Shown: one piece after another, positions 1 through 4,026 of the stretch | Layout: each line of letters begins with the position of its first letter | How positions within the stretch are numbered: the stretch's first letter is position 1 | Source: Candidatus Bathyarchaeia archaeon | Lineage (GTDB): Archaea > Thermoproteota > Bathyarchaeia > Bathyarchaeales > Bathycorpusculaceae | NCBI GenBank assembly: GCA_030019335.1 | Contig: JASEET010000007.1 | Coordinates: 1 to 54,544, forward strand | Direction of reading: 5' to 3' | DNA length: 54,544 bases | Translations under genes and position numbers: made by a program | The notes under the pieces: model-generated | What the model was told of the DNA's origin: nothing | The model's database searches: none | The model's input: only the letters and a program-made list of their open reading frames with translations

Positions 1-548
1 AGGGTCCTTCAGCAGTTTTAGACGTGCTTGTTAACATTCCAATAATTGTTCCCTCTGTTGCTTTGGGAGCTTCCCTTGGCATTTTCTGGAAGGAAAATTT
101 TGTATTCATACCTGAAATTTGGACGCTCATCTTAGTACACCTTTGCATAACTTATCCCTACTTTGTAAGGGCAATGTCAGCCGCTATAGAAAGAATAAGC
201 ATAGAATTGGAAGAAGCTGCAAGGACGCTTGGGGCAAAACCGTTAGGTGTGTTTAGAACAATAATTTTTCCGCTGACAAAATATTCTATGATTTCCGGTG
301 CAATCATTATGTTTACAAGAAGTGTAAGCGAAACCGGAGCCACATTAGCAGTTTTAGGTGTGGAAAGCCCCCTTGTAACAGCACCGGTTTTACTGGCGAA
401 AAAGTGGGTGATACCATATATAACGGATCCCAATACCGCCCCAGCGACAAGAGCAGAAATTGGTTTGGGTTGTGGTTTCCTTATACTTCTGTCTTTCATA
501 ATATTGCTGGTTCTAAGGTTAGTTACTAGAGGGAAAGAGGGACACTAG
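1..548 (+). CDS. ABC transporter permease, 5'-truncated by window edge
   Basis: Membrane subunit of an ABC importer. The reading frame is open from base 3, so the gene begins outside the window and a GTG at 24 is probably internal. The visible 180 or so residues hold several hydrophobic segments and the cytoplasmic EAA loop (EEAARTLGAKPLGVFRTIIF), which docks on the ATPase. The style is that of the sulfate/molybdate/tungstate/ferric-iron permease group (BPD_transp_1). An ATPase with a matching C-terminal TOBE region follows after 71 bases, so the two are surely partners. The binding protein, which would tell the substrate, is not in view. An oxyanion or iron substrate is inference only. Confidence 0.88.
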   Translation, partial: GPSAVLDVLVNIPIIVPSVALGASLGIFWKENFVFIPEIWTLILVHLCITYPYFVRAMSAAIERISIELEEAARTLGAKPLGVFRTIIFPLTKYSMISGAIIMFTRSVSETGATLAVLGVESPLVTAPVLLAKKWVIPYITDPNTAPATRAEIGLGCGFLILLSFIILLVLRLVTRGKEGH

Positions 549-619: not shown

Positions 620-1723
620 GTGCCTGATGTCCGCTTGGTTAACGTGACGAAAAGGTTTGGAAAAATTGTTGCTGTAAATAACGCAAGCCTTCACATTTAT
701 GATAAGGAATATTTTTCTTTGCTTGGTCCAAGCGGATGTGGAAAAACAACTTTGCTGAGGCTTATTGCGGGGTTAATTCAGCCGGATGAAGGTGAAATCT
801 ACATTGGAGATAGGCTTGTTAGCGATGTTCCGCCGGAAGATAGGAACATTGGGTTTGTATTCCAGACTTTTGCATTGTTTCCACACATGAATGCCTGGGA
901 CAACGTGATTTATGGCCCGAGAGTAAAAGGTTTCAACACGGACAAGGCGAAGACGATAGGACATGAAGTGCTTGAAATGGTTAGGTTGCATGAACGTTTA
1001 GATGCTTTTCCAAGCGAGTTAAGCGGGGGGATGATGCAGAGAATTGCAGTGGCAAGAGCTTTAGCCGCTGGTGCCAAACTGCTACTTCTGGACGAACCAC
1101 TAGGACAGCTGGATGCAAAGGTAAGAAATGAGCTGAGGTATGAGATAAGAAGGATGGTAAGGGGTTTAGACTTAACGGCTATACATATAACACACGACCA
1201 GTCTGAGGCAATGGCAATTTCAGACAGAATCGCAGTTATGAAGAAAGGCAAGGTTTTGCAGGTTGGAACTCCGAAGGAACTTTACATGAAACCAAAAAGC
1301 GTATTCGTAGCCCACTTCATTGGAGAATCGAACTTCCTAGAAGGTTATATTTCAAGCATACGTGAAGAAAAAGCAACAATAGAGCTTCGTGGCGGGATAA
1401 AAGTTCAAGCGATAGATAAAGACGTGGAGAAGGGTGAAAGAGTGGTCTTAGCAATAAGGCCAGAAACTTTTATTATTGAAAGAGGGATGAAGAAAAGTAA
1501 AAACTCTGTTTTAGGCATTGTAGAAAGAGTCACTTTTGAGGGAACAAATATACGATATGAAGTTAGACTTGAAAATCAAGATTTAGTAGTGATTGTTAAG
1601 CCTTCTCTAATTGGAGAATGGTTTAATACAGGTGAAAAGGTTACTGTAAGCTTCCCACCTGAAAAAGCCCATGTATTCGCATATCCAGGAGCAGGATTAA
1701 AGGAGGAAATATCTGTTGAGTGA
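620..1723 (+). CDS. ABC transporter ATP-binding protein with TOBE domain
   Basis: Nucleotide-binding subunit, 367 aa, energising the permease just upstream. Visible motifs: Walker A GPSGCGKTT near residue 38, Q-loop FVFQ, signature LSGGM (family usually LSGGQ), Walker B LLLLDEPLGQLDA and the switch His in HITHDQ. After about residue 235 comes a TOBE-type regulatory region, as in the sulfate/molybdate/iron/polyamine importer ATPases. Start is GTG at 620 after the purine-rich run AAAGGGGG. The 3' end overlaps the next gene by 8 bases, and a strong AAAGGAGG lies just before that gene's TTG, so the two are translated together. Substrate not determinable from sequence. Confidence 0.92.
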   Translation: MPDVRLVNVTKRFGKIVAVNNASLHIYDKEYFSLLGPSGCGKTTLLRLIAGLIQPDEGEIYIGDRLVSDVPPEDRNIGFVFQTFALFPHMNAWDNVIYGPRVKGFNTDKAKTIGHEVLEMVRLHERLDAFPSELSGGMMQRIAVARALAAGAKLLLLDEPLGQLDAKVRNELRYEIRRMVRGLDLTAIHITHDQSEAMAISDRIAVMKKGKVLQVGTPKELYMKPKSVFVAHFIGESNFLEGYISSIREEKATIELRGGIKVQAIDKDVEKGERVVLAIRPETFIIERGMKKSKNSVLGIVERVTFEGTNIRYEVRLENQDLVVIVKPSLIGEWFNTGEKVTVSFPPEKAHVFAYPGAGLKEEISVE

Positions 1724-2375
1724 ACTAATAAAATGGTTTGAGAAGAGAAGGGAAACAAGGGCTTTAGCAACTATACAGCGACACCTAGCTTTAACAACAG
1801 GAATAGTTGAAGACTTGGAAAAAGCAATAAGTGTAGCCACAAAAAATGACGTGAAGGAAATGAAGAGATGTGTTAAAAGAGTAGCGAGTAGCGAAAGAGA
1901 AGCAGACGTGTTACGAAGAAAAGTTATGGACGAAATATCAAAGGGTGAACTTTCACCAGTAGACAGAGCAGACTTAATGGACCTTGTAAAAAGAGTGGAT
2001 ATGGTTGCAGATTGGAGCAGAGAATCCACACGTGTACTGGGCGCCATACCAATGGAGCATGTTCCCAACTCGATTAAAAATGAATCCCTAGAAATGGTTA
2101 GAAGCGTGAAACAGTGCGCAATTTCCCTTCAAAAATGCGTGAACAAAATGATGAGAAAACCTGAAGAAGCCCTTCAAGCCGCGGATGCCGTAGAAAGAGA
2201 AGAAGAAAAAGTTGATGACATACACGAAAAAGCCAGAATACTACTGGGAAAAGAAGACTTGCCGAGGGCTGGAGTAGCAGTTTTAGTAAGCCAGCTTTTC
2301 GAAGCCATAGAAATGATTGCAGACTCGTGTGAAGATGCATGCGATCAGATAAGAGTAATAATGGTTCGAAAATAA
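1716..2375 (+). CDS. DUF47 / PhoU-like family protein
   Basis: 219-aa all-helical, highly charged protein of the DUF47 (Pit accessory protein, TIGR00153) group. Helical repeats with ExxxD-type acidic positions run through it (for example SEREADVLRRKVMDEIS and EEKVDDIHEKARILL, and near the end EAIEMIADSCEDACDQI). Relatives form PhoU-like bundles that bind metal and usually sit beside PitA phosphate permeases. Here the partner is an ABC importer ATPase, overlapped by 8 bases; TTG start at 1716 with a near-perfect Shine-Dalgarno at 1699-1706. This suggests a regulatory role for that importer, or that the importer handles phosphate or a similar anion (inference). eL22 follows 11 bases later. Confidence 0.85.
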   Translation: MSELIKWFEKRRETRALATIQRHLALTTGIVEDLEKAISVATKNDVKEMKRCVKRVASSEREADVLRRKVMDEISKGELSPVDRADLMDLVKRVDMVADWSRESTRVLGAIPMEHVPNSIKNESLEMVRSVKQCAISLQKCVNKMMRKPEEALQAADAVEREEEKVDDIHEKARILLGKEDLPRAGVAVLVSQLFEAIEMIADSCEDACDQIRVIMVRK

Positions 2376-2386
2376 GGTGAACAAGC

Positions 2387-2665
2387 ATGGCAGAAACAAG
2401 AATCGACATATCAGAACTGAAAAGTGATGGCGGCGACGTAATCAAAGAATTAGCGGAATTTCTAGAAGAAAAGACAAAAGCTGAAGTTGAAACAGCAACA
2501 AACGAAATAATAGTAAAAGGCGAAGGAAAAACCATTTCCAAAAAATACTTGCGAGTGCTCCTACGAAAGTTTCTACATAAAGTCGAATTAAAGGATTATT
2601 TCAGAGTGATAGGTGGCAAAGAAAACACTTTGATAGTTAAAGAGAAGAAAATCGCTGAGGAGTAA
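2387..2665 (+). CDS. rpl22e: Ribosomal protein eL22-like (L22e)
   Basis: 92-aa basic protein resembling eukaryotic large-subunit protein eL22. The core GKTISKKYLRVLLRKFLHK followed by VELKDYFRVIG matches the eL22 signature in which a lysine-rich S-K-x-Y-L helix is followed by L-x-x-Y/W-x-R-V. The N-terminal segment with alternating charged and hydrophobic residues fits the first strands. Length is close to the eL22 core. eL22 is patchily distributed in archaea and absent from most well-studied lineages. ATG at 2387, 11 bases after the DUF47 gene. It ends 3 bases from the convergent 2669-3061 gene. Alternative: another small RNA-binding protein with a similar helix. Confidence 0.75.
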   Translation: MAETRIDISELKSDGGDVIKELAEFLEEKTKAEVETATNEIIVKGEGKTISKKYLRVLLRKFLHKVELKDYFRVIGGKENTLIVKEKKIAEE

Positions 2666-2668
2666 TCT

Positions 2669-3061
2669 CTATTTCTTTTTGAGCGCCTCACGTTTCTTTT
2701 TGGCAAAATCTTTTTGAACCTTAAGTATGTAATGTCTTGCAATGTAAGCATTCTTGTAAGCGTCTAGCAGCTTTTCATCAGCCATACAATTTTCAGCTTC
2801 ATCAAGCAAGTCTTGCGCCGCAATAAGCGCTGGACCAACTTCAACCTTTTTAACTTTGGGATTAAGCTTCCATTTTGATTTGTCGCTTTCATCCTGAAGT
2901 GTTATTGAGAATAGGAATAATGCGTATTCTAGTTCTGCTGCAACATGCCAAACGTTATCCGCAAGCGAGTTTTCATCTTTTTTATTCAACGCCAACATTG
3001 AGTTTTCCAAGTAAGCCATCGCGGATTTCAGAGCCTTCAATATTTTTTCGTTAGCTGCCAT
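2669..3061 (-). CDS. Hypothetical helical protein (130 aa)
   Basis: No family recognised. The protein is predicted all-helical, rich in Lys, Ala and Glu, and ends in a lysine tail (KKKREALKKK). The spacing of Ala/Leu helices and ARHYILKVQK near the end resembles HEPN-like or four-helix proteins, but no catalytic RxxxxH is present. I chose the ATG at 3061 over the longer frame (TTG at 3118) because a TATA-like GGTATAATGT lies about 25 bases upstream of it, the distance expected for a leaderless archaeal transcript. Convergent with eL22. Confidence 0.65.
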   Translation of the reverse strand: MAANEKILKALKSAMAYLENSMLALNKKDENSLADNVWHVAAELEYALFLFSITLQDESDKSKWKLNPKVKKVEVGPALIAAQDLLDEAENCMADEKLLDAYKNAYIARHYILKVQKDFAKKKREALKKK

Positions 3062-3080
3062 TGTCTCAACTCGTTTCAGC

Positions 3081-3090
3081 ACATTATACC
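3081..3090 (-). promoter_or_regulatory. TATA-like element, leaderless promoter for 2669-3061
   Basis: Minus-strand GGTATAATGT centred about 25 bases upstream of the ATG at 3061. An archaeal TATA box lies about 25 bases before the start site, so the transcript would begin at or next to the start codon. Confidence 0.4.
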
Positions 3091-3114
3091 TACCGTCCTT
3101 TTTTATTTGTTTCG

Positions 3115-4026
3115 TCAAACCTGAATGCTTTCAACTTTTTCTTTGGCAGTGAAAAAGATTCCTATCAGAATTAAAGCGGCACCGAAAACAAACAGTAGCG
3201 CGGGTATCTCTTGGAACAGGATTATGCCTAAAACCGTTGCGCCAATAGGTTCAAGCAATGCCATCGTCGCGGTTTCGAAGGATTTCAGGTTTGATAAGGA
3301 AGAAAAATAAAGCGTATGAGCTGCTGCTGTTGGCAATATGCCCAATCCTACCAGCGGAAGGATAATTTCTGCTTCAGTTGGCAATGTTAAAATTTTGTTT
3401 GTGGTTGGTATGCTTAAAACTCCTACAATGATAGCTGTCGATATACATCGGGAACATTGTAGGAATTATAGCCATCTGGTTCCTTATTTTCCTGCCATAA
3501 TTAAGATAGAAGGCTTCAACTAAAGCAGCCAAAACAGCTTCCAAATCGCCTTTTAGGCTTAGAGAAAAACCTTCCAAATAAGCATTTGCATTCGCAATTC
3601 TGGTTTCAGCGTAAGCAATCACGCATACACCTATGAATGAAATCGTTAAGCCTATGATTGCGAGGCGAGATGGTTTGAGTTGAAGAGGAAGCTTGAGACG
3701 AACGTTGAGAAAATTGGAGTTGTGTTGACAAGGACCGTTGCGTTTAGGATTGTTGTGTCCTTCACTGCGGATATGAAGAATATGAAGTGGAGGGCGAGGA
3801 AAAAGCTGAGTATAAGGAGTTTTTTTCTCACGAGGTTAAAGTTGAATGATTTTCTAAAAACAATTAAGATTATAGCTAGGCTTAAGCAAGCGATTATTAG
3901 ACGCCAGAAGGCTATGTAGAATATATCTATGTTTTGTAGAAATCTTATGAAGATGGCTGCTGTTCCGAAGAGAACTCCGGCGGTTATACCTTCTGTTAGA
4001 GCCAGTTTCCTTGTTCTCACACGCAT
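3115..4026 (-). pseudogene. DMT/EamA-family transporter, broken by two frameshifts
   Basis: Three consecutive minus-strand segments together make one EamA (drug/metabolite transporter) protein of about 300 aa, the usual length. Segment 4026-3652 has the typical start (GVLFGTAAIFIRFLQNIDIF, then AFWRLIIACLSLAIIL). It runs into a stop, but one base earlier in frame the protein continues as LKPSRLAIIGLTISFIGVCVIAYAET. That segment runs to about 3440, where the frame returns to the first one and reads TAIIVGVLSIPTTNKILTLP through PLVGLGILPTAAAHTLYFSS to EKVESIQV. The two one-base indels compensate each other. The region between them is still conserved, so the damage is recent or is a sequencing error. 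No intact product is expected as read. Confidence 0.82.

Follow-up and report, generated by a model that had tools for sequence, protein, structure and literature searches.

An archaeal eL22 gene of Bathyarchaeota at the end of a transporter-DUF47 gene cluster

A short open reading frame (ORF) behind the ABC importer genes of a bathyarchaeon raises the question whether a ribosomal protein of the eukaryotic type is encoded in such a place and, if so, what it does there. The window, i.e. the whole stretch of DNA that was analysed, comprises 54,544 nucleotides of contig JASEET010000007.1 (assembly GCA_030019335.1, Candidatus Bathyarchaeia archaeon), from a genome of 1.64 Mb in 73 contigs. A sequence-only reading had described the ORF as an eL22-like gene of a kind rare in archaea, located 11 bases after a DUF47 gene in a transporter operon that resembles no ribosomal operon. 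The features concerned are the following.

3 to 548, plus strand: fragment of an ABC importer permease gene (BPD_transp_1, PF00528), with its 5' end beyond the window
620 to 1723, plus strand: ABC importer ATPase with TOBE domain, 367 aa (PF00005, PF08402)
1716 to 2375, plus strand: DUF47/PhoU_div gene, 219 aa (PF01865, 94.9 bits)
2376 to 2380, plus strand: GGTGA, a putative ribosome-binding-site-like motif six bases 5' of the eL22 ATG
2387 to 2665, plus strand: eL22 gene with ATG start, 92 aa, based on PF01776, PDB matches, predicted fold and pn/ps
2540 to 2581, plus strand: basic helix KKYLRVLLRKFLHK, codons 52 to 65, counterpart of the human L22 RNA-binding residues 80 to 93
2669 to 3118, minus strand: gene of 149 aa, convergent with eL22, without a family match over cut-off in Pfam or NCBIfam

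The stop codon of the DUF47 gene (2373–2375) is separated from the eL22 start codon by 11 bases, and the location behind DUF47 and importer genes, unlike a ribosomal operon, proved to be as described. The DUF47 gene and eL22 are probably co-transcribed, in a transporter-DUF47 transcription unit that would end with eL22. Further along the window, on the minus strand (3115–4026), a gene of an EamA-type transporter cluster is split into three separate ORFs. In relatives this gene is a single ORF of about 300 aa (locus L098, for example), and the split copy is either a pseudogene or an assembly error.

The protein was matched by the Pfam family Ribosomal_L22e (PF01776) over residues 6 to 81 with 39.1 bits, above the gathering cut-off of 23.6 (E 1.1e-9), and by no NCBIfam family at E≤0.1. 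In the same family search PF01776 scored over its cut-off in none of 14 control genomes; at a loose E≤10, sub-threshold matches were present in five of the 14. When the single protein was compared with the PDB by phmmer, the top match was eukaryotic eL22 (1.5e-4), and the eL22 alignments ran ungapped across the RNA-binding helix. This search is weak on its own, because it also returned calmodulins, which are presumably unrelated, at E values of 0.003 and above. More informative was a profile built from 29 relatives of the window protein (A1): it retrieved 68 PDB sequences at E≤10, the best at 5.5e-9, and 57 of the best 60 of these 68 are named L22 or eL22. The other three of the 60 have uninformative names (8jiv_CU, 6uz7_AU and 5it7_UU). 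No calmodulin is found among the 60 matches listed, and the profile result removes the doubt left by the single-sequence search.

Strands are predicted at residues 2–7, 33–36, 40–45, 72–76 and 81–86 of the protein and helices at residues 11–14, 16–30 and 52–65. An AlphaFold model was made on the A1 alignment, with a pLDDT of 84.9 and a pTM of 0.74. Each of the 50 Foldseek matches listed for this model is a chain from a eukaryotic ribosome or a pre-60S particle, with a TMq of up to 0.86. By VIA-align, 85 to 91 of the 92 residues were superposed on eukaryotic ribosomal chains in the 50 matches listed (Z 12.5–14.1, rmsd 1.3–2.1, identity 22–33%), and many of the matched chains carry the name eL22 in the PDB sequence searches. 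Profile search and structure prediction, the two checks that had been proposed for the eL22-like identification, thus both bear it out. The window gene is an archaeal eL22 of Bathyarchaeota, and it is presumably a strict orthologue of eukaryotic eL22.

The resemblance to the eukaryotic protein (RPL22, PF01776) consists of the profile match, a predicted fold shared along almost the entire chain and the basic helix. Human L22 reportedly requires its basic residues 80–93 to bind RNA with high affinity, and its m88 mutant is excluded from ribosomal subunits (PMC2668802). According to the PDB alignments, the human clusters 80–84 and 88–93 correspond to window residues 52–56 and 60–65 (KKYLR and RKFLHK), in which K52, K53, R56, R60, K61, H64 and K65 are basic. 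Throughout the 29 A1 proteins, positions 52, 56, 60, 61 and 73 are occupied by K or R and position 64 by H; position 65 carries K or R in 28 of them, and just 17 have a basic residue at position 53. A wider archaeal alignment (A2, 21 rows), in which identity to the window protein goes down to 24%, retains K or R at positions 56 and 73 in 21/21 and at position 60 in 20/21 rows, and at positions 52, 61 and 65 in only 16 to 17 of 21. In these alignments, most of the basic residues with which the helix of human L22 binds RNA are conserved.

Eukaryotic eL22 has been located at the tip of 28S helix 59, beside Sec61, and has an acidic tail (PMC11186639). An acidic C-terminus, with at least three D/E in the last six residues, is also common in the archaeal relatives (21/29 A1 rows, 7/21 A2 rows); the window protein itself ends in KKIAEE, with two acidic residues of the last six. 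Unlike its eukaryotic counterpart, the window protein has no N-terminal extension before the domain and counts 92 aa, against mostly about 95 to 140 aa for the eL22 sequences in the PDB. The archaeal transporter neighbourhood is a further difference, as is the pI, which lies at 5.2–6.6 in 20 of the 29 A1 proteins. Such a low pI in many members is unusual for a ribosomal protein and speaks mildly against a ribosomal role. The ORF is under purifying selection, with pn/ps values of 0.16 to 0.30 in comparison with eight relatives.

The distribution in related archaea shows that 'rare' was a misleading description. PF01776 scored over its cut-off in 41 of 60 relatives and in 99 of 250 members of the class. 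Of 86 genomes sampled from the window's own family, 77 were matched by the A2 profile (the window genome among them), each with E below 1e-23, so that the gene is near-universal in this family. Only one of the nine family genomes lacking a match is at least 90% complete (G011, 96%), the others being 58–85% complete. At class level 139 of 250 genomes matched at E≤0.001, a figure that takes in B-type (see below), divergent or paralogous forms. Of 398 genomes in the phylum sample, 73 matched at E≤0.01; seven of these rest only on E values of 0.001–0.01 and were treated as noise. No A2 match occurred in the 11 listed genomes of family f9, which belongs to the same order, and eL22 is considered dispensable in f9 because it is absent from all 11; another f9 genome, G233, gave a weak PF01776 match within a 685-aa frame. 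A scan of named genome records returned three loci with close relatives of the gene, all from Candidatus Bathyarchaeota. Archaeal eL22 is clade-restricted, not simply rare.

The gene neighbourhood was scanned in 81 loci from 80 genomes, these being the loci fetched and not a random sample. A DUF47 gene was counted when a profile scan placed it on the strand of eL22 and no more than 400 bases upstream. By this count DUF47 lies directly upstream of eL22 in 34 of the 81 loci, namely in 24 of 50 from the window's own family and in 10 of 31 others, and the arrangement also occurs in two genomes outside the class (family f34). Because of this scattered occurrence, f34 included, the arrangement looks old and repeatedly lost while eL22 was kept. 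A homologue of the 149-aa convergent gene was found, and this neighbour is present in 26 of the 81 loci.

Other settings were also encountered. In nine out of nine loci read from families f32 (seven), f47 (one) and f56 (one), eL22 lies beside or near GatD/GatE on the opposite strand, the Gat family assignment having been tested on two proteins of these loci; a four-base overlap of the eL22-like gene with GatD was seen in six of the seven f32 loci. Loci with GatD/GatE near an eL22-like gene are L065–L071, L073 and L129. In genomes G348 and G047 the gene immediately preceding eL22 belongs to the adenylosuccinate synthetase cluster (PurA-like), with the family tested on the G348 protein. The transporter setting proposed by the sequence-only reading is thus real at this locus and common, but it is dispensable, and an obligate linkage of eL22 to the ABC importer and DUF47 genes was not found among the family and other loci. 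Since DUF47 directly precedes eL22 in only 24 of the 50 family loci, the DUF47/ABC setting is probably context and not function, and the loci with other neighbours make it an unreliable clue to function.

The explanation that we prefer, with a probability of roughly 0.77 for the whole, is an archaeal eL22 orthologue that binds domain III of 23S rRNA and that was placed historically in the transporter-DUF47 unit. The long basic helix would be the part that binds domain III, close to the exit tunnel, and the position of the gene in the unit would be historical, not functional. A large-subunit protein bound to domain III is favoured because most RNA-binding positions are kept, acidic tails occur, pn/ps is low and eukaryotic eL22 sits at helix 59; archaeal eL22 is most likely a protein of the large subunit. 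What we infer is its assembly into the ribosome, its site on the rRNA and co-transcription. The membrane-transport neighbours in many loci are a point against the ribosomal reading. In a rival reading the gene would encode an eL22-derived protein that binds RNA off the ribosome, for instance hairpins in the transporter-DUF47 mRNA, and so tunes expression. Precedents have been reported, as eukaryotic Rpl22 binds a hairpin in the mRNA of its paralogue (PMC3750023) and yeast Rpl22 an intron element (PMC4838235). The DUF47 neighbourhood in 34 of 81 loci, including two genomes outside the class, and the near-neutral or acidic pI of 20 of the 29 A1 proteins fit this role as well. Against it, eL22 is kept without a DUF47 gene just upstream in 26 of 50 family loci, nine f32/f47/f56 loci have it near GatD/GatE and two have it behind the PurA-like gene; we regard such a role as improbable, though the least so among the alternatives.

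It is very unlikely that the window protein is a small beta-alpha-beta-beta-alpha-beta protein converged on the eL22 fold. This fold type is reported as common in ribosomal proteins (PMC11354259), identity to the chains matched by VIA-align is only 22–33%, and the single-sequence search returned calmodulins at E 0.003 and above. However, the Pfam profile finds the window protein and the archaeal A1 profile finds eL22 with no calmodulin among the 60 matches listed, while the alignments pass ungapped through the RNA-binding helix, and convergence is thereby largely refuted. The eL22 family is best known from eukaryotes, and contamination by eukaryotic DNA or recent acquisition from a eukaryotic donor might also be imagined. 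However, many genomes share the archaeal flanks seen here, archaeal A2 members are as little as 24% identical to the window protein, and the gene is carried by three named Bathyarchaeota assemblies. The conserved archaeal synteny refutes such an origin, whose probability is close to negligible.

For the archaeal eL22 as a ribosomal protein, a change in the rRNA was sought. Searching 40 genomes for 23S rRNA gave matches in 26, and 17 loci spanned the whole model; 15 of these were aligned, L157 and L158 being omitted as near copies of L156. The aligned set comprised eight eL22 carriers and seven genomes lacking a canonical A-type match, with divergent A2 matches in two of the seven (G071 and G528). 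The segment that surrounds and follows the GTAATGGC hairpin, which we take to be H57–H59, measured 112–115 bases in carriers and 104–114 in the others, where the value of 104 may reflect where the search pattern stopped. As its length does not differ between carriers and non-carriers in the 15 aligned loci, no rRNA change tracks eL22. In the window's own genome 23S gave no match. Protein eL38 was matched in 29 of 30 genomes, over cut-off in 27, with or without eL22, and is uninformative as a co-marker since it is present regardless of eL22.

Two IMG/VR contigs (L180 and L181) have an eL22 gene near the contig end, with tail-type genes upstream. Over 1060 bp this region is colinear, at 71%, with a host locus (L063, genome G174), including eL22 and the gene on each side, and a virus-borne eL22 was rejected in favour of host DNA beside a provirus. 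This suggests that a Bathyarchaeal provirus became integrated next to the eL22 locus; a search for a tRNA that could have served as insertion site found none.

Zaremba-Niedzwiedzka and co-workers reportedly recorded eL22 in Asgard archaea in 2017. A putative L22e was described in Lokiarchaeum (PMC4571567), and eL22 was counted among twelve ribosomal proteins called eukaryote-specific, some Asgard archaea excepted (PMC8997704). These Asgard proteins are likewise archaeal eL22 homologues, set beside the Bathyarchaeota gene through published reports only. With the structure of the Sulfolobus ribosome, aL45, aL46 and aL47 were reported as three novel proteins of the archaeal large subunit (PMC10516650); eL22 is mentioned neither in the main text of that paper nor in that of another on archaeal ribosome structure (PMC9976906). 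No report naming eL22 or L22e in Bathyarchaeota was found in a literature search that left many subscription papers uncovered and is weak evidence of novelty. While eL22 was known in Asgard archaea, its occurrence in Bathyarchaeota may be new.

Because most sampled close relatives carry eL22, it is suggested that the protein arose in archaea beyond the Asgard group. It may have been inherited from the common ancestor of the Asgard and Bathyarchaeal stocks, or have moved between them. With eL22 near-universal in a Bathyarchaeal family and divergent relatives in other families of Thermoproteota, its presence in Asgard archaea is by itself no mark of kinship with eukaryotes, and the distribution underlying arguments on eukaryotic ribosomal proteins is altered. 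An archaeal ribosome would also allow the role of eL22 beside the exit tunnel to be asked without the eukaryotic extras.

The A2 search also returned a second set of Bathyarchaeia proteins (B) of 95–117 aa, with an eL22-like domain and a basic tail, which in some genomes co-occurs with a canonical eL22 copy (loci L108–L118 and L121–L126). The AlphaFold model of B (pLDDT 81.0) shares its eL22-like predicted fold with the window protein: the 50 VIA-align matches listed are chains of eukaryotic ribosomal particles (Z 11.3–12.7), and the best Foldseek match has 4.6e-5. Unlike the window eL22, B falls below the PF01776 cut-off (of two proteins tested, one reached 14.4 bits and the other gave no match), is strongly basic (pI 8.8–11.0 in 15 rows) and has no acidic tail, ending in HG(W/F) or WG(L/I). 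A profile of these 15 rows (A3) matched 15 of 60 relatives at E≤0.001, only five of them strongly (E below 1e-40); the other ten genomes had weak matches only, located at A-type genes, so that the B profile and A-type genes cross-match. B is patchy in occurrence, and no fixed neighbours of its genes were seen in the loci read. A tentative and rather doubtful reading is that eL22 predates the Asgard-eukaryote branch and had already been duplicated, and had diversified, within the archaeal lineage akin to the host of eukaryotes, with A, which is often acidic-tailed, as the ancestor-type of eukaryotic eL22 and B as an unrecognised archaeal ribosomal protein; if so, Bathyarchaeal ribosomes would carry one or two eL22-fold proteins.

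The genomes read from family f24, and some others, have divergent eL22-like proteins only, and these proteins could not be firmly placed with A or B. Several of them, mostly from f24, have the motif PY(F/Y/L)(F/Y)P in the tail, following a stretch rich in proline. Divergent eL22-like loci are L119, L130, L131, L134, L137–L139 and L141.

The window's own genome has a second A-type copy on contig C44 (33735–33956; 3881–4240 of locus L107). It was matched by A2 over positions 14–87 of 91 (3.0e-13) and by PF01776 with 17.3 bits, below cut-off. Its start region is unmatched and the conserved DYFRV segment is missing, and it is either a degenerate or a diverged duplicate of the window eL22 gene. A weak third match in this genome lies on contig C22 (198802–198957, E 0.0026).
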